Source of the DNA: Candidatus Baldrarchaeum yapensis
GTDB taxonomy: Archaea > Asgardarchaeota > Baldrarchaeia > Baldrarchaeales > Baldrarchaeaceae
Assembly: GCA_016840465.1 (NCBI GenBank)
Contig: JAEOSH010000012.1
Location: forward strand, 1-47,534
DNA length: 47,534 nt
Direction of reading: 5' to 3'
Both the position numbers and the translations under genes were made by a program. This document shows, piece after piece, positions 16,230 through 47,534 of the stretch. The first letter of the stretch is position 1. The number at the start of each line of letters is the position of its first letter. The notes under the pieces were generated by a model. That model ran no database searches. It worked only from the letters and a program-made list of their open reading frames with translations, and was not told where the DNA came from.

Positions 16230-16284
16230 GAATAAATTTAATACCGGGTTTGCCGTGAAAAATAATGATGTGGACGGTGGTCGA

Positions 16285-16752
16285 ATGGAGCCTAATGTCT
16301 TTGAGAAAATACTAACAAGGCTAATAAAGAGCGAAAGCGGAATAAGACGGGCGATCTTAGTCGATAGAACCGGTCTGACTATCGCCCATGCCTCGAAGTT
16401 CTCATCCTATTATCCGATAGACGTGGAGGGAATAGGCGCTATTGCAAGCGCGATTTTCGTTGGCAGTGAGGAGCAGGGCAAGAACCTTGACATAGGAGAC
16501 CTACAAATGGTGATATCAGAGTTCGAGAACGGAAAAATATTCGCAATCAGCTGCGGACAGGGGGTACTTTGCCTAATCACCGATCCGGATGTCAATATAG
16601 GAATGATAAGGTTGCTCATGAAACGAACTGCTGCAGAATTAGGGAAATTGCTGGATGAGTTCCTATCGGCCACCGTCTCGATTCCTGTAGAGGAGAAGAA
16701 GGAGGAAGAGGAAGAACTAAAGGCAGCCCTCGATGCGCTGGAACAATTATAA
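16285..16752 (+). CDS. Roadblock/LC7 domain protein with acidic C-terminal tail (locus A)
   Basis: 155 residues from the ATG at 16285 (GGTGGT upstream; a GTG at 16255 would add ten residues). Residues 5-120 form a roadblock domain: SESGIRRAILVDRTGLTIAHASKF..IGAIASAIFVGSEEQGKNLDIGDLQMVISEFENGKIFAISCGQGVLCLITDPDVNIGMIRLLMKRTA. The last 25 residues (VEEKKEEEEELKAALDALEQL) are a charged helix, possibly a docking or coiled-coil segment. It ends 15 bases before the GTPase gene, which is its likely partner. Confidence 0.85.
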   Translation: MEPNVFEKILTRLIKSESGIRRAILVDRTGLTIAHASKFSSYYPIDVEGIGAIASAIFVGSEEQGKNLDIGDLQMVISEFENGKIFAISCGQGVLCLITDPDVNIGMIRLLMKRTAAELGKLLDEFLSATVSIPVEEKKEEEEELKAALDALEQL

Positions 16753-16767
16753 TGGTGGCCATAAGAC

Positions 16768-17358
16768 ATGCCAAGAGTTGACCCCCAGGGAAGATTACAC
16801 TTTAAAATAGTGTTCTGGGGTCCCTCTTTATCGGGAAAGACGACATCACTTAGGTGGATATACAATAACGTAGAGGGAATAACTAAGGGGAGATTTGTGT
16901 CGATAGAAGATCCGACAGGCAGAACGCTATACTTCGACTACACGCCTGTCTCCATATCGTCAAAAGTCGTGTTCGATCTCTATACAGTCGCGGGGCAAAG
17001 AAGGCACAAAATACAGAGAAGGAAGGTGCTGGAAGGAGTAGATGGAATACTATTCGTAGCAGATTCGGATCCAGCTCAGCTTCAGGAAAATGAAATTAGC
17101 ATGACCGAATTAAGACAACTGCTAGGAGACAAGCTTGGAAGGGAAATACCACTTGTCGTGTTACTAAATAAGCGAGATCTTCCAAATGCCGTGAGTAAGG
17201 AAACCCTCCTCAATGCCCTTAAGATAGTCCCGGTAAATATTCGCGTTTATGAGGGAATCGCGATAAGAGGGATAGGAGTGAAACAGGCTTTCAAAGCGAT
17301 AGTTCGTGAGGTGCTCTGGAACTATTACCAGCGGGCTAAGCAACAGAAGGCACAATGA
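16768..17358 (+). CDS. MglA-like small Ras-superfamily GTPase (locus A)
   Basis: 196 residues. P-loop GPSLSGKTT at residues 18-26, a DPTGRTLYFDY switch region near 48-58, the G3 motif in YTVAGQ (72-77), and G4 NKRD at 134-137. As in bacterial MglA, the usual Asp of the DxxGQ motif is Thr (TVAGQ), which separates it from Arf, Ras and Rab. MglA-like GTPases act as switches whose GAP is the roadblock protein MglB. Here three roadblock genes share the operon, so one or more may be GAP or scaffold. There is no lipidation motif or membrane segment. The ATG follows GGTGG. Confidence 0.92.
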   Translation: MPRVDPQGRLHFKIVFWGPSLSGKTTSLRWIYNNVEGITKGRFVSIEDPTGRTLYFDYTPVSISSKVVFDLYTVAGQRRHKIQRRKVLEGVDGILFVADSDPAQLQENEISMTELRQLLGDKLGREIPLVVLLNKRDLPNAVSKETLLNALKIVPVNIRVYEGIAIRGIGVKQAFKAIVREVLWNYYQRAKQQKAQ

Positions 17359-17385
17359 AAAAGTTTATCCAAAACAGGAGTTTTC

Positions 17386-17793
17386 ATGTTTATGAAGGTG
17401 ATTGAAGTGAGTGAGGTTGTAGGGGTTGAGCCTCAAACACTATCCAAATTACTAAAGGAGTTTACAATGACAGTCCCAGAAATCGAGGGCGCGGCCCTTG
17501 TCACTGATGAGGGACTACCAATAGTGTCCGTTCTTCCAGAGGGTGTTGATGAAACAAAGATTGCCGCTATGACGGCAGCAATTCTATCTCTTGGAGAACA
17601 AACATCTAAAGAATTAGGGAAGGGGTCTCTAGAGCAGGTTTACATTAAAGGGAAGAACGGTTACATAATAGCGATGGATGCGGGATCGAATGCCGTGTTA
17701 GCCGTCATCGCAAGCAGTGAAGCAAAACTAGGGCTAGTTTTGTTTCGCATGGAGCAGCTTGCTGAGAAGATATCAAAGATAATATCTTTGTAA
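17386..17793 (+). CDS. Roadblock/LC7 domain protein (locus A, downstream of GTPase)
   Basis: 135 residues. The roadblock fold spans residues 18-130: LSKLLKEFTMTVPEIEGAALVTDEGLPIVSVLPEGVDETKIAAMTAAILSLGEQTSKELGKGSLEQVYIKGKNGYIIAMDAGSNAVLAVIASSEAKLGLVLFRMEQLAEKI. It is similar in layout to the minus-strand roadblock protein at 15450 (GYIVIAGGRNVILVAYA against GYIIAMDAGSNAVLAVIA), suggesting duplication. AGGAG precedes the ATG at 17386; an ATG two codons on is possible. Seventeen bases separate it from uppS. Confidence 0.9.
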   Translation: MFMKVIEVSEVVGVEPQTLSKLLKEFTMTVPEIEGAALVTDEGLPIVSVLPEGVDETKIAAMTAAILSLGEQTSKELGKGSLEQVYIKGKNGYIIAMDAGSNAVLAVIASSEAKLGLVLFRMEQLAEKISKIISL

Positions 17794-17810
17794 AGCTTGG
17801 GTAGTCAAAA

Positions 17811-18575
17811 ATGAATATTTTAGGGCCAATTTATCGGTTGTATGAATGGCTATTGTGGAGAAAGGTGAGTAAAGGGAAAATTCCACAACACGTTGGTGTA
17901 ATACTGGATGGCAATAGAAGGTTTGCACGAGAGCACGGCCTTGACATCGAAAGTGGTTACCGGAGGGGTGCTGAAAGAGTCAGGCACTTCCTCAAGTGGT
18001 GTTTAGACATAGGAATAAAGGTGATAACGCTCTATGCCTTCAGTACTGAAAACTTTCAGCGCGATGAGCGGGAAGTTAGTATACTTATGAAATTATTAAA
18101 AGAGTACGCAGAAAAGGCGCTAAATGAACCTTACATTTACAAATACAAAGTCCGTATTCGCGTACTTGGAAGAAAATATTTGTTCCCAGAGGAATTAAAG
18201 GAACTAATAAATGAACTTGAAGAGAGGACAAAAAACCATGACAAGTATTTTCTAAACATAGCCCTCGGCTATGGCGGACGAGCAGAAATTGTAGATGCGG
18301 TTAAGAAAATAGTAAGGGAAGCGATTAATGGGAAAATAGATCCCGAAGAAATAGATGAGGACATGATAAGAAGGTATCTTTATACCGATGGGCTCCCAGA
18401 CCCGGATATTATCATCAGAACCTCCGGTGAGGAGAGACTGTCAGGTTTTCTCCTATGGCAGTCAGCATACTCCGAGTTGTATTTTTTAGATGTTTACTGG
18501 CCAGCAATAAGAAAAATAGACTTCCTTAGAGCTATTAGAACATATCAGCAACGGGAACGCAGATTTGGAAGGTGA
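17811..18575 (+). CDS. uppS: cis-Prenyl diphosphate synthase (UppS / DHDDS family)
   Basis: 254 residues. Diagnostic motifs are HVGVILDGNRRFAREHGLD (catalytic Asp and the Gly-Asn-Arg-Arg motif), GAERVRHFLKWCLDIGIKVITLYAFSTENFQR, LNIALGYGGRAEIVDAVK, and the C-terminal PDPDIIIRTSGEERLSGFLLWQSAYSELYFLDVYWP. It condenses isopentenyl diphosphate onto an allylic primer to form the long cis-polyprenyl (dolichol-type) carrier for glycan assembly at the membrane. It lies inside the roadblock/GTPase operon with short gaps on both sides. Confidence 0.95.
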   Translation: MNILGPIYRLYEWLLWRKVSKGKIPQHVGVILDGNRRFAREHGLDIESGYRRGAERVRHFLKWCLDIGIKVITLYAFSTENFQRDEREVSILMKLLKEYAEKALNEPYIYKYKVRIRVLGRKYLFPEELKELINELEERTKNHDKYFLNIALGYGGRAEIVDAVKKIVREAINGKIDPEEIDEDMIRRYLYTDGLPDPDIIIRTSGEERLSGFLLWQSAYSELYFLDVYWPAIRKIDFLRAIRTYQQRERRFGR

Positions 18576-43369: not shown

Positions 43370-43663
43370 CTATCTTCTTCCGAGCGGTACTCTCTTCTTT
43401 CTCTCCTCTTCAGGCCTTATCTTAGCGATCCCGTAGTAAACAGCACATCTTATACAGTAATAAACAGTATCGGTACGTGTGTATATGTATGCCCCCTGCT
43501 TCCGTAGCTCCTTCATGAGCGAAGGGTCAACTAGGCTTATCCTCCGTGTTATCTTTTTCGCCTTATCTCTCGGCACCCTTTGACCGCACTTGCAACATTG
43601 GACGTACTCGGTTCGCCCCTTACTACCCTTCGATCTTCCACCACTTTTTCGTTTCTTTGGCAA
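43370..43663 (-). CDS. rps26e: Small ribosomal subunit protein S26e
   Basis: 97 residues. Starts MPKKRKSGGRSKGSKGRTEYVQCCKCGQRVPRDKAKK and continues VYYCIRCAVYYGIAKIRPEEERKKR. The CxxC pairs (CKCG and CIRC) form the eS26 zinc site, and the family pattern is unmistakable. S26e occurs in eukaryotes and in TACK/related archaea but not in most euryarchaea, so it is a lineage marker. The ATG has GGAGG upstream, with a TATA-like CCTTAAAAATG at 43713-43723 (minus direction). Confidence 0.96.
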   Translation of the reverse strand: MPKKRKSGGRSKGSKGRTEYVQCCKCGQRVPRDKAKKITRRISLVDPSLMKELRKQGAYIYTRTDTVYYCIRCAVYYGIAKIRPEEERKKRVPLGRR

Positions 43664-43806: not shown

Positions 43807-44433
43807 TCAGAATCTAGTGGATGCCACTATGAGTCCTGCCATCGTGATATGCAACGCAAAGTACTCGAGTAACATTTCAAAATTCAGCAATAAGTGATGT
43901 GAAAGTGCCCATACCACTAAGCATAACGTTAGCAGGGCTATGCGCGCACTTTTCAATTTTATTGCGGAGAGAATAAACACCGATACTATCAGCAAACCCC
44001 CGCTAATTGCATAAATTTTCATTATTGCTGAAAACCACAAGGGGACCCCGGGCTCGTCAAATATCTCCGCCCTGACGACATGTATCCCGATGAACGGCAA
44101 TGATAGTAATATGCACACCACGCTTACAATTATCAGAATTCTAATCGCCCGTCTCAATCCTCTATGGACAAAAATCTCCGAAAGTAACAGCCAGCCTATC
44201 GCCCCAGTCGGCATTCCTATGGTGAACCATATAAGTGCAAACATATCTCTCGAAAACAGGCCAACCGACCATATCAGTACATCTATCTGCCCAAGTATTC
44301 CAAGTACATAGTAAATGGCAAAAAACAACGTCCCCTTCTCCACCTTCTTATAAACAATTGCAGGCCTTAGCAATAAGTATGCTGCAACCACAGACGCCAA
44401 GATACTAGTCGTACCAACTACCTCGAGAACCAT
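43807..44433 (-). CDS. Seven-helix membrane protein of unknown function (locus B)
   Basis: I cannot assign a family. 208 residues from the ATG at 44433 (GGTGA five bases upstream; a GTG at 44442 overlaps the GTPase stop). Hydrophobic segments are near residues 3-22, 36-58, 66-86, 96-116, 134-156, 160-178 and 183-204, so about seven helices. There is no large soluble domain. The 7TM pattern recalls sensor-type membrane modules (7TMR, MASE) but without recognisable motifs. It is the last gene of an operon with a GTPase, an unknown protein and a double-roadblock protein, so a membrane receptor or anchor for that GTPase is a working idea. Confidence 0.8.
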   Translation of the reverse strand: MVLEVVGTTSILASVVAAYLLLRPAIVYKKVEKGTLFFAIYYVLGILGQIDVLIWSVGLFSRDMFALIWFTIGMPTGAIGWLLLSEIFVHRGLRRAIRILIIVSVVCILLSLPFIGIHVVRAEIFDEPGVPLWFSAIMKIYAISGGLLIVSVFILSAIKLKSARIALLTLCLVVWALSHHLLLNFEMLLEYFALHITMAGLIVASTRF

Positions 44434-44438
44434 GAAAA

Positions 44439-44990
44439 TCACCCTATATTCTCCAATATTTTCAAGAGCAGAGTCTCAAACGCCTCCTTTACCCCCATAC
44501 CGGTGATCGCCGAAGTTCGCATCACCTCAACCTCATCTCCCAATCCAAGAGCGCTCTTTAACTCCTCTGGGGAAATTACGCCATTAAGGTCACATTTGTT
44601 TATGCAAAAGAGCAACGCCGTACTCCGCTTAATCACGCGTTTCAGCTCCTCCCAGCATTTTTTATTGAGCTCTATGCAGGTGCGTTGCCCATCCGCTACG
44701 AAGATGACCCCATCGGTTCCCCTGAGTATCGTGTACCTGGTTCCTGCGTAATAATCCTGTCCGGTAGCCGTCCATAGATTCACCTCCAACGTCCAGTCAT
44801 CAAATTTCAGTTTGATTACCCCAAAGTCGAAAAAGAGAGTCCTTCCGGTAGTGGTCTCGACGGATCTAACATGGTCGTCGTATCCCAGTTCCTTCAATAG
44901 AGCCTTCAGTGAGGTGGTCTTTCCGCTCATCGCAGGTCCATAATACACGATCTTCAATTTTATCGTTTTATTAGCGCGATCTACAATCAT
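44439..44990 (-). CDS. MglA-like small Ras-superfamily GTPase (locus B)
   Basis: 183 residues from the ATG at 44990 (GGTGAT four bases upstream, overlapping the previous stop; a GTG at 45002 is in frame). P-loop GPAMSGKTT at residues 18-26, TTTGRTLFFDF near 46-56, G3 NLWTATGQ (71-78), G4 NKCD (131-134) and G5 TSAITG (159-164). As in MglA, Thr replaces the Asp of DxxGQ. It is related to the locus A GTPase but clearly distinct, so the genome keeps at least two. The adjacent roadblock protein (45892-46818) is the likely partner. Confidence 0.92.
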   Translation of the reverse strand: MIVDRANKTIKLKIVYYGPAMSGKTTSLKALLKELGYDDHVRSVETTTGRTLFFDFGVIKLKFDDWTLEVNLWTATGQDYYAGTRYTILRGTDGVIFVADGQRTCIELNKKCWEELKRVIKRSTALLFCINKCDLNGVISPEELKSALGLGDEVEVMRTSAITGMGVKEAFETLLLKILENIG

Positions 44991-44995
44991 GATCA

Positions 44996-45889
44996 TCACC
45001 ACAGACTATCGATCCAGTCGCTAATGCTGCGAATCACGCTCTTAGAAATCAAATCTCCGAAATCCTCTCCCCACTCGGCCCTAATAAACTCAAGAAGGCC
45101 CGCAATGTCTATGTGCGGATAGAGTATTGTCTGTAGTAAAGTCCTATCGGAAATCCTATCCCTCATACCAACATTGTTAAGTATTCTGAGTTTGTAAAGA
45201 AGTATTAAGGCCCTCCTAGCCGCATGCACGAAGTTCAGAACCTCATTTCGTAGCAACTCCTCCTTGAGCATAGTCTCCTCGGTACTGAAATCTAAGAGTA
45301 TATCCGAGAGATCGGTATCCAACCTCAGTCCGCGAATTCTCCTCCTGATGACTTTACGCATTCTGCTCAGAGCGGTATGAGTCCTCACAATAGCATTTTC
45401 AATTAACTGCCTTTCAAATCCATAAAGCCTTTCCTGATCTCCCAAGGACTCCATGCGCACTCCATCGCTCAAGTATAAGACCTCCACAGGTCCGGAATAT
45501 CTGAAAACTCCCTCAACAATCTTATTAGTATCGTTATTTGGCTCTCGAAGAACCCCCAAAACCCAACCCTTGAAGTCAGAAAATTTCTCGAGCGCCATTT
45601 TCACATATCTGCATGGACACACAATTACAACTCGCTTTGCATGTAAATCCTGTCTCTCTCTCCTCAGGATTTCTTCGTACTCCCTTGTAGTTATGAAATC
45701 TATACCAAAGATGACTTTATCCCTATGAGGCGCAAATGAAGCTATATACTCAAGCATTAAATCCACGGATCCCCCATTTTCCCCAATAACGATAATGGGC
45801 CTCCTTAATAGCAGTGCGCTCAGCAACCTCGCCAACTCGTCTACATTCAATGACGAAAATATCATTGAGGGCGAAAACGTGCCCTTCAT
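44996..45889 (-). CDS. Protein of unknown function (297 residues, locus B)
   Basis: I do not recognise this protein. 297 residues, ATG with GGAGG upstream inside the end of the roadblock gene. Residues 5-150 read as alternating strands and helices (RRPIIVIGENGGSVDLMLEYIASFAPHRDKVIFGIDFI, KRVVIVCPC, GWVLGVLREPN, PVEVLYLSDG), an alpha/beta domain without a P-loop or other catalytic signature. Residues 155-297 are mostly helical, with a basic segment RMRKVIRRRIRGLRL near 178-192. No signal peptide or membrane helix. Its stop overlaps the GTPase start region, so it is translated with the GTPase and could be its regulator or effector. Confidence 0.8.
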   Translation of the reverse strand: MKGTFSPSMIFSSLNVDELARLLSALLLRRPIIVIGENGGSVDLMLEYIASFAPHRDKVIFGIDFITTREYEEILRRERQDLHAKRVVIVCPCRYVKMALEKFSDFKGWVLGVLREPNNDTNKIVEGVFRYSGPVEVLYLSDGVRMESLGDQERLYGFERQLIENAIVRTHTALSRMRKVIRRRIRGLRLDTDLSDILLDFSTEETMLKEELLRNEVLNFVHAARRALILLYKLRILNNVGMRDRISDRTLLQTILYPHIDIAGLLEFIRAEWGEDFGDLISKSVIRSISDWIDSLW

Positions 45890-45891
45890 GT

Positions 45892-46818
45892 TTACCCCCT
45901 CCTAAATATCCTCATTATTTTGGATAATATTCCGGATAGGTAACCTCTATGTCTGTTTCTGGTGTTATCTATCAAATCCCTTAATTTTTTGACATACGAG
46001 GGAAGAAAGACCTTTATAAGACCAAGCCTTAACCCCTCTTTTGAATTCTTGAGTGCAAGAATGCCGACGCTTATGTCGTAAAGAATGTAGTTGGTCTCCT
46101 CAAAATCACAAATAAACTGAGTCACCTGACTTCTTTTAAGCGTCCATGCTAGCCTCTTCGAAACGTCCATCACTGAATAGAGAAAGGGAGCTAAGTACTC
46201 CAACTCGCTACCATTCTTGGAAACGGTAACAACAGGCGTTCCTCCATCAATTATAAATGCCGCGGACATAACTTGAGGTATTACTTTCATCAGGCCGTCA
46301 AGAAGCGATCTTATTGTACGAATTTCATCATCACTGAACTCGAAAACCTCCCTCTCTACAGTGTCCACCTCTAGCGACCCCGGCCTCAAAGAGAACCTCT
46401 TAAGAGTCTCCAACATGGCATCATCAATACCCTTAGGAGGAACCCTAAGATCCCTCAACCGTAACAACTCGGGATACGCAATACTCACAAATTCGTTGAT
46501 CTTCAAGAAAATCGCGCCCATATTTACCGATGCGTGGGTCAATACGGCAAGGCGCAATTCCTCAATTTGAGGGAGAGATGATATTATGAGTTTTGCCCTA
46601 TCGCCTTCTATTACTACATAGTTCGGATTCTTGTTGTGTATTTGATGGACCGCCTTTATTATGGCCGCTACCGATGAGCACACTCCTAGTACCTCTTCCT
46701 GACTAAGCCACGCACCCGAAATTCCCAGCGGGTATCCGTCCTGCTGAACCAGTACCACGACCTCAACTCCGGGTACTTGCCTAATCATCTTAAGGCGAGA
46801 CGCTATGCTGCTTTCCAT
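45892..46818 (-). CDS. Two-domain roadblock/LC7 protein (locus B)
   Basis: 308 residues from the ATG at 46818; a GTG at 46836 would lie upstream of the likely transcription start. The N-terminal roadblock domain (about 8-115) reads VPGVEVVVLVQQDGYPLGISGAWLSQEEVLGVCSSVAAIIKAV...VVIEGDRAKLIISSLPQIEELRLAVLTHASVNMGAIFLKINE. A second, weaker roadblock-like domain (about 175-285) reads IPQVMSAAFIIDGGTPVVTVSK...LYSVMDVSKRLAWTLKRSQVTQFICDFEETNYILYDISVGILALKNSKEGLRLGLIKV. The basic C-terminus ends in KIMRIFRRG. Covalent pairing of two roadblock domains would mimic the MglB or Ragulator dimer. It leads the operon. Confidence 0.85.
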   Translation of the reverse strand: MESSIASRLKMIRQVPGVEVVVLVQQDGYPLGISGAWLSQEEVLGVCSSVAAIIKAVHQIHNKNPNYVVIEGDRAKLIISSLPQIEELRLAVLTHASVNMGAIFLKINEFVSIAYPELLRLRDLRVPPKGIDDAMLETLKRFSLRPGSLEVDTVEREVFEFSDDEIRTIRSLLDGLMKVIPQVMSAAFIIDGGTPVVTVSKNGSELEYLAPFLYSVMDVSKRLAWTLKRSQVTQFICDFEETNYILYDISVGILALKNSKEGLRLGLIKVFLPSYVKKLRDLIDNTRNRHRGYLSGILSKIMRIFRRG

Positions 46819-46856
46819 GGCTGCTCGCCCCTCCACATAAGTGTCTCTAAGAAATG

Positions 46857-46864
46857 TATAAAAA
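46857..46864. promoter_or_regulatory. Bidirectional TATA-like box between locus B and the deacetylase
   Basis: TATAAAAA lies midway in the divergent gap. Plus-strand transcription would start near 46886, with a leader carrying GGGGAT before the deacetylase ATG. Minus-strand transcription would start near 46834, just before the roadblock ATG at 46818. Inferred from spacing. Confidence 0.4.
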
Positions 46865-46913
46865 CCCCGAAAGATCGCGTCTTATTCAGTCATGTAGAAA
46901 ATTGGGGATAACA

Positions 46914-47534
46914 ATGAAGTTGGGTCTGGTCTACGGGAAAGTATTCCTGCAACACTCCGTTTCCATACTAAGACCGTGGATGGAAGCTTTTGAAAGTCCG
47001 TTGAGATACGAATGTGTAATTAGGCATCTGAACACAAAGGGCATACTAAGCAATAATAGAATAATACGCATACCTCCTGAAAGGGCAACCTTCGATAGTA
47101 TTCGCAAAGTGCACTCGTCGTACCTCGTAGATATCGTCAGAATTCTTTCGACGTTTGGAAAAGGGGTCGTGGGGCACTGCTCCCATGTTTCCGATCATTT
47201 ATCAAATGTGACACTATACGCATGTGGAAGCGCAATAAGAGCCGGCAACGCTGTCTTCCGAAAGGAAGTAGATATGGCATTCGCCCTCATTCGTCCTCCG
47301 GGCCATCATGCAAGCAGGTCACACGCTGAGGGATTATGCTACTTTAATAACGTGGCGGTGTTAGCAAGCCATCTGAAGGAAGAACATGGCGTAGAAAGAA
47401 TACTTATAGTCGATCACGACACGCACCCCGGCGACGGAACCATGGAAATTTTTTATAGCGATAAAAATGTCTTTGTGTTCTCAATACACGAATATGACTT
47501 CGAGTACCCTGAGAGGGGATGGCTGGGGGAAAGG
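46914..47534 (+). CDS. HDAC-family deacetylase, 5' part (acetylpolyamine amidohydrolase / AcuC-like)
   Basis: First 207 residues; the gene runs off the window. The class II-type core is visible: ALIRPPGHHASRSHAEGLCYFNNVAVLASHL (catalytic histidines in GHHA) and IVDHDTHPGDGTMEIFYSDKNVFVFSIHEYDF, where D-x-H supplies zinc ligands. The usual HHGNG/HHGDG reads HPGDG here. Archaeal members can deacetylate polyamines or proteins; polyamine genes lie elsewhere in this window, which makes a polyamine substrate worth testing but does not show it. GGGGAT precedes the ATG. Length and C-terminal features unknown. Confidence 0.9.
   Translation, partial: MKLGLVYGKVFLQHSVSILRPWMEAFESPLRYECVIRHLNTKGILSNNRIIRIPPERATFDSIRKVHSSYLVDIVRILSTFGKGVVGHCSHVSDHLSNVTLYACGSAIRAGNAVFRKEVDMAFALIRPPGHHASRSHAEGLCYFNNVAVLASHLKEEHGVERILIVDHDTHPGDGTMEIFYSDKNVFVFSIHEYDFEYPERGWLGER

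Follow-up and report, generated by a model that had tools for sequence, protein, structure and literature searches.

The MglA-MglB polarity switch of Myxococcus and Thermus consists of an MglA-type GTPase, which bears an arginine and a glutamine in its switch regions, and an adjoining roadblock gene whose product, MglB, is a single-roadblock homodimer acting as a GAP. The actinobacterial conservon (cvnA-D) contains a roadblock protein, a Ras-like GTPase and two more genes per operon, cvnA encoding a membrane protein with a histidine-kinase-like ATPase and cvnC a DUF742/HTH protein (PMC8510531). The Rag-Ragulator system with FLCN-FNIP comprises a heterodimer of small GTPases, a roadblock scaffold and a longin-DENN regulator. 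Eukaryotic DENN proteins are GEFs for Rabs, and indeed major Rab exchange factors, while FLCN-FNIP2 and C9orf72-SMCR8 are GAPs, FLCN and C9orf72 being linked to disease. A 2012 survey of the DENN family derived the longin domain alone from archaeal or prokaryotic roadblock proteins and placed the longin-DENN fusion in the eukaryotic stem (PMC3521125). Roadblock, longin and TRAPPC3 proteins have since been described in Asgard archaea by Tran et al. (2024), who remarked that small GTPase genes of MK-D1 generally lie outside operons with roadblock or longin genes and that their partners are hard to predict from gene layout (PMC10933270). A search of openly accessible journal papers found no report of DENN or folliculin proteins from Asgard archaea.

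The four-gene locus and its comparison with described systems

The window, that is the whole 47,534-nucleotide stretch of DNA analysed, comes from the 2.27-Mb genome of the Asgard archaeon Candidatus Baldrarchaeum yapensis, in keeping with a first-pass annotation that had taken the host to be an archaeon. The same annotation had described four same-strand genes with two-base gaps or overlaps, and all four reading frames were found with spacing that agrees (Table 1). More specifically, two bases (45890-45891) separate the stop of the double roadblock gene from the start of the next gene, whose product is here called the middle protein. The stop of the latter gene (44996-44998) lies just 5' of the likely GTPase start, and that of the GTPase gene (44439-44441) overlaps GTG 44442, the earliest codon at which the membrane protein gene could start. 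The likely start of the roadblock gene is the in-frame ATG at 46818, where the earlier annotation had also ended the locus. The cluster is flanked by a divergent histone-deacetylase-family gene (46854-47534, plus strand) and on its other side by the ribosomal protein S26e gene (43370-43663); in Baldrarchaeia relatives a gene resembling the former sits upstream on the same strand.

Table 1. Positions of the genes, domains and related operons discussed in the text (window coordinates unless a locus is named)
Feature	Position	Strand	Remarks
Double roadblock gene	45892-46836	minus	314 aa; first gene of the unit
N-terminal roadblock domain	46417-46821	minus	residues ~6-140; profile match to 7f8m_A
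C-terminal roadblock domain	45952-46359	minus	residues ~160-295; matches 9jue_D (E 6e-9), CvnB5 (E 8e-6), MglB (E 0.002)
Middle protein gene, candidate stand-alone DENN (cDENN + dDENN-like)	44996-45889	minus	297 aa; "unknown" gene of the first-pass annotation
Alpha/beta (cDENN-like) part of middle protein	45440-45889	minus	from model
All-helical C-terminal (dDENN-like) part of middle protein	45047-45421	minus	from model; helix 202-239
MglA-type small GTPase gene	44439-45002	minus	187 aa; likely start ATG 44990
GTPase switch region	44757-44843	minus	Arg54 = 44841-44843; Gln82 = 44757-44759
Seven-helix membrane protein (7TM) gene	43807-44442	minus	seven hydrophobic segments
Second-type Hermod operons	L204:1737-3721, L205:4950-6947, L206:2-1489		genomes without the middle protein in the main cluster
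Asgard longin-DENN proteins, Folliculin/C9orf72 type	L268:1360-2598, L262:1069-2208, L200:5715-6695		

The GTPase had been called MglA-like, and its closest solved relatives are indeed MglA proteins (profile E 1e-43). Its P-loop, NKxD motif, switch-I Arg54 and switch-II Gln82 are invariant among 38 members, giving it, together with its closeness to MglA, each of the features by which an MglA GTPase was recognized. Arg54 aligns with the arginine in RTLFFDF, and Gln82 with the glutamine in PGQ, of T. thermophilus MglA, counterparts that are the catalytic residues positioned by MglB. A Rag GTPase was ruled out, the protein being a single-domain GTPase that has no C-terminal roadblock domain; the locus shares with Rag-Ragulator and FLCN-FNIP a small GTPase, a roadblock scaffold and a longin-DENN-type regulator, but it holds a single GTPase instead of a heterodimer. 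Elsewhere in the window, positions 16255-18575 (plus strand) encode a roadblock protein (165 aa), an MglA-like GTPase (196 aa, 36% identical to that of the four-gene locus) and a second roadblock protein (135 aa), both roadblock proteins matching RB profiles, and a gene with cis-prenyltransferase motifs comes after this set. At least ten small-GTPase-like regions occur in the source genome, such numbers being the usual Asgard expansion.

The reading of the first gene as a double roadblock protein held for both halves, each of which matches roadblock structures by profile; 7f8m, matched by the first, is itself an Asgard roadblock structure, and the two halves align with each other (hhalign probability 82, E 1e-5). 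Membership in the Roadblock/LC7 family follows from these profiles, the window protein lying just under the Pfam Robl_LC7 cut-off and 35 of 36 orthologues matching Robl_LC7. Identity with MglB was rejected, as there are two roadblock domains per chain. Thus the locus shares with MglA-MglB the MglA-type GTPase, its switch Arg and Gln, and the adjoining roadblock gene, but differs in that the roadblock protein is a fused pair and not a homodimer, in the DENN-like third subunit encoded between the two, and in its restriction to Asgard archaea.

Seven hydrophobic segments were found in the window membrane protein and in two orthologues ~40% identical to it, as the earlier seven-helix call had it. 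The likeness to the conservon, which had been proposed as a resemblance short of a full match, extends to the roadblock protein, the Ras-like GTPase and the presence of two more genes; those two, however, encode the 7TM protein and the DENN-like protein, both without a Pfam match and unrelated to cvnA/cvnC-type proteins. With two of four components differing, a conservon was ruled out.

A gene trio conserved across the Asgard phylum

When loci were gathered with the GTPase profile in a scan of named genomes (n = 80), the roadblock, middle protein and GTPase genes occurred in fixed order on one strand in 68 of them, in the Baldr, Odin, Thor, Loki, Hel, Hermod and Sigyn lineages, all Asgard archaea. 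The middle protein is present in 41 of 79 relatives, with a double roadblock gene adjoining in nearly all, and its profile matches 112 of 393 relatives, every one in the Asgard phylum. Most roadblock and middle protein genes are spaced by -4 to +23 bases, in counts to which two releases contribute some of the same genomes. The genes flanking the trio vary from lineage to lineage. Because the order is kept across the phylum while the flanks change, the trio is held together as a unit; its gene order is conserved beyond chance, and it constitutes an ancient, conserved unit. Loss of adjacency in related genomes had been named in advance as a finding that would overturn the proposal, and the core trio stays together across the phylum. 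A complete Asgard trio also occurs on a contig labelled Patescibacteria (L157, JANBVM010000002.1), which was probably assigned to that MAG in error.

Of the four-gene unit originally proposed, then, three genes recur as such but the fourth does not. Clusters that include the 7TM gene were confined to the order of the window (Baldrarchaeia): L076 and L078 have an orthologue at the corresponding place, as does L077, where the contig end cuts it, and the corresponding cluster of every other Asgard lineage has no 7TM gene. Because the 7TM gene clusters with the trio in Baldrarchaeia only, the membrane link is lineage-specific and not general to the trio; the suggestion of a membrane-linked switch stands for the window's order and fails as a general property.

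Two observations from Hermod bear on the trio in opposite directions. Some Hermod loci carry the roadblock and GTPase genes without the middle protein, which counts against the main reading developed below. A second type of Hermod operon comprises genes for a roadblock protein (~180 aa), an MglA-like GTPase (199 aa) and a relative of the DENN-like protein (290 aa); this rearranged operon again joins the three components and counts for a shared complex.

Fold and relatives of the middle protein

The middle protein had been left unplaced in the first-pass annotation, but it can be placed as DENN/folliculin-like by structural models and profile homology. It has no Pfam match and no PDB sequence match, and Pfam scans of up to 69 members of its family returned scattered weak matches only. 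No family member rose above the cut-off for Pfam DENN (PF02141) or Folliculin_C, the Hermod gene matching below threshold at E 0.02-0.37 for DENN and E 0.07 for Folliculin_C. An AlphaFold model of the window protein, built with 35 orthologues (pLDDT 90), predicts an alpha/beta domain with strands at residues 32-36, 56-61, 86-91, 109-114, 135-139 and 145-149, and then a helical domain. In a Foldseek search of this model against the PDB, chains of DENND1A, DENND1B, FLCN and the C9orf72 complex were interleaved with P-loop ATPases. The DENN chains had the highest query TM-scores (0.35-0.39, against at most 0.32 for the other matches listed) and Foldseek probabilities of 0.96-1.00, but no E-value below 1e-3. 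For a separate AlphaFold model of a Thor orthologue, which shares 27% identity with the window protein, the top rank went to a chain from the FLCN GAP complex, C9orf72-complex, DENND10 and DENND1B chains were listed too, and P-loop ATPases were again interleaved, all E-values exceeding 1e-3. Both models fit the architecture of an alpha/beta cDENN followed by an all-helical dDENN, with DENN chains ranking high at Foldseek E-values above 1e-3. The mixed composition of the lists is explained by the DENN domain itself, which has a P-loop-like topology without the nucleotide-binding residues (PMC3521125).

A sequence bridge to folliculin-type proteins was found within the Asgard archaea. The Pfam Folliculin_C profile gave twelve sub-threshold matches in Asgard genomes, the best six of which (E 6e-4 to 6e-3) all belong to one other Asgard family and are proteins of ~330 aa whose N-terminal part is longin-like; their profile aligns with that of the middle protein (hhalign probability 77, E 2e-5). 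In another Asgard family, the longin half of relatives scores above the Pfam Folliculin cut-off, and matches above this cut-off occur in 39 of 224 Asgard genomes and in 0 of 14 controls. One protein (L268) has both halves, with a Folliculin longin match of 2.6e-8 and a DENN-like half at E 2e-19. A profile of the C-terminal half of these longin-DENN proteins matches 40 of 69 middle proteins at E<0.01 and none of 538 decoys, shuffles and reversals, and it aligns with the middle protein profile at hhalign probability 94.7 (E 6e-8), over a stretch of just ~60-80 residues. By these profile comparisons, the middle protein is homologous to the C-terminal half of the larger Asgard longin-DENN proteins (L268, L262 and the A5 set). 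The latter, of ~325-500 aa, have a longin half and a DENN-like half in one chain, unlike the middle protein, and the A5-type genes belong to families whose genomes had no middle protein of the trio. Among PDB sequences, the longin-DENN profile came closest to SMCR8, at only E 0.5.

When the middle protein profile was compared directly with PDB-verified human DENND1A, DENND1B, FLCN and C9orf72 (HMMER and hhalign, with shuffled and real decoys), no significant match was obtained; homology to DENN is for this reason called probable and not shown. On balance the middle protein is probably a stand-alone DENN (cDENN + dDENN) homologue. It shares with the eukaryotic DENN module (DENND1A/B, FLCN, C9orf72, SMCR8, DENND10) a predicted alpha/beta domain without Walker motifs, a predicted helical domain after it and association with a small GTPase. 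It differs in that the longin (uDENN) half is not in the same chain, which begins at the alpha/beta domain, a longin/roadblock-type domain being supplied instead by the neighbouring gene; in the outcome of the direct comparison; and in that its partner is of MglA type, not Rab or Rag.

A proposed switch and its alternatives

The MglA-type GTPase, the fused roadblock pair and the DENN subunit appear reasonably likely to form one small-GTPase switch, and a physical complex of the three proteins is likely. The double roadblock protein would correspond to an MglB dimer joined covalently, a platform that holds the GTPase, binds its switch regions and, like MglB, stimulates hydrolysis. Because the GTPase bears its own switch-I Arg and switch-II Gln, the roadblock pair probably acts by repositioning these residues. 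The DENN subunit, without a longin half of its own, would dock on the roadblock/GTPase pair, where control of nucleotide exchange would be its most likely function, and the separate chains would together be equivalent to the longin-DENN module of eukaryotes. In Baldrarchaeia, the 7TM protein added to the trio may be a membrane anchor or input.

The role of a GEF is assigned to the DENN-like subunit tentatively, and that of a GAP or scaffold is a possible but doubtful one; the former is slightly favoured because the middle protein has no longin half and an arginine is already present in the GTPase. An alternative, in which the DENN-like and double roadblock proteins together act as a GAP or scaffold in the manner of FLCN-FNIP2 or C9orf72-SMCR8 and not as an exchange factor, seems rather unlikely. 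The best structural matches do include chains of two GAP complexes, those of FLCN and C9orf72, ARF1, on which C9orf72:SMCR8 acts, sits on two longin domains (PMC8213707), and MglA has been placed in the Arf-side clade (PMC3521125). However, the catalytic arginine of those GAPs resides in the longin half (in C9orf72-SMCR8 it belongs to SMCR8; PMC8213707), which the middle protein does not have, and the GTPase carries an invariant switch arginine of its own.

That the middle protein belongs with Rossmann-like proteins, as a degenerate P-loop protein or one of another kind, and resembles DENN by fold alone is improbable. The Foldseek lists do contain VirB11, GspE, CpaF and AAA ATPases among the DENN chains, and the comparison with human DENN sequences favours this reading too; yet a Walker A motif (GxxxxGK[ST]) occurs in 0 of 69 family members, a P-loop-like fold without the motifs is what the DENN domain itself presents (PMC3521125), the ATPase matches score lower query TM, and the profile tie leads to proteins with a Folliculin-type longin domain. 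Still less probable is a conservon-like sensor system in which the 7TM protein senses a signal and relays it to the roadblock/GTPase pair. The 7TM gene overlaps the GTPase gene in the window and comes after it in Baldr relatives, but the clusters of other Asgard lineages do without it, and the locus has no histidine-kinase-like or HTH/DUF742 protein, the middle protein having a modelled alpha/beta DENN-like fold. Finally, the adjacency of the trio could be that of a historical operon whose products share no complex; a phylum-wide order amid changing flanks and the independent, rearranged linkage in Hermod render this most improbable.

A single switch built from the three proteins is the preferred reading, and the trio operon runs counter to the remark on MK-D1 gene layout, offering a ready-made candidate complex to express. 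There is perhaps an even chance that the operon preserves the ancestral longin-DENN module, with the roadblock/longin platform, the DENN subunit and the Arf/MglA-side GTPase as separate neighbours; if this is true, the DENN module would predate eukaryotes. Related Asgard lineages already bear the folliculin/C9orf72-type longin-DENN fusion. With a DENN-like protein encoded in a phylum-wide Asgard operon beside a roadblock protein and an MglA-type GTPase, the DENN half would have an origin in archaea and a specific partner, and the trio may be what corresponds in archaea to the longin-DENN module of eukaryotes.
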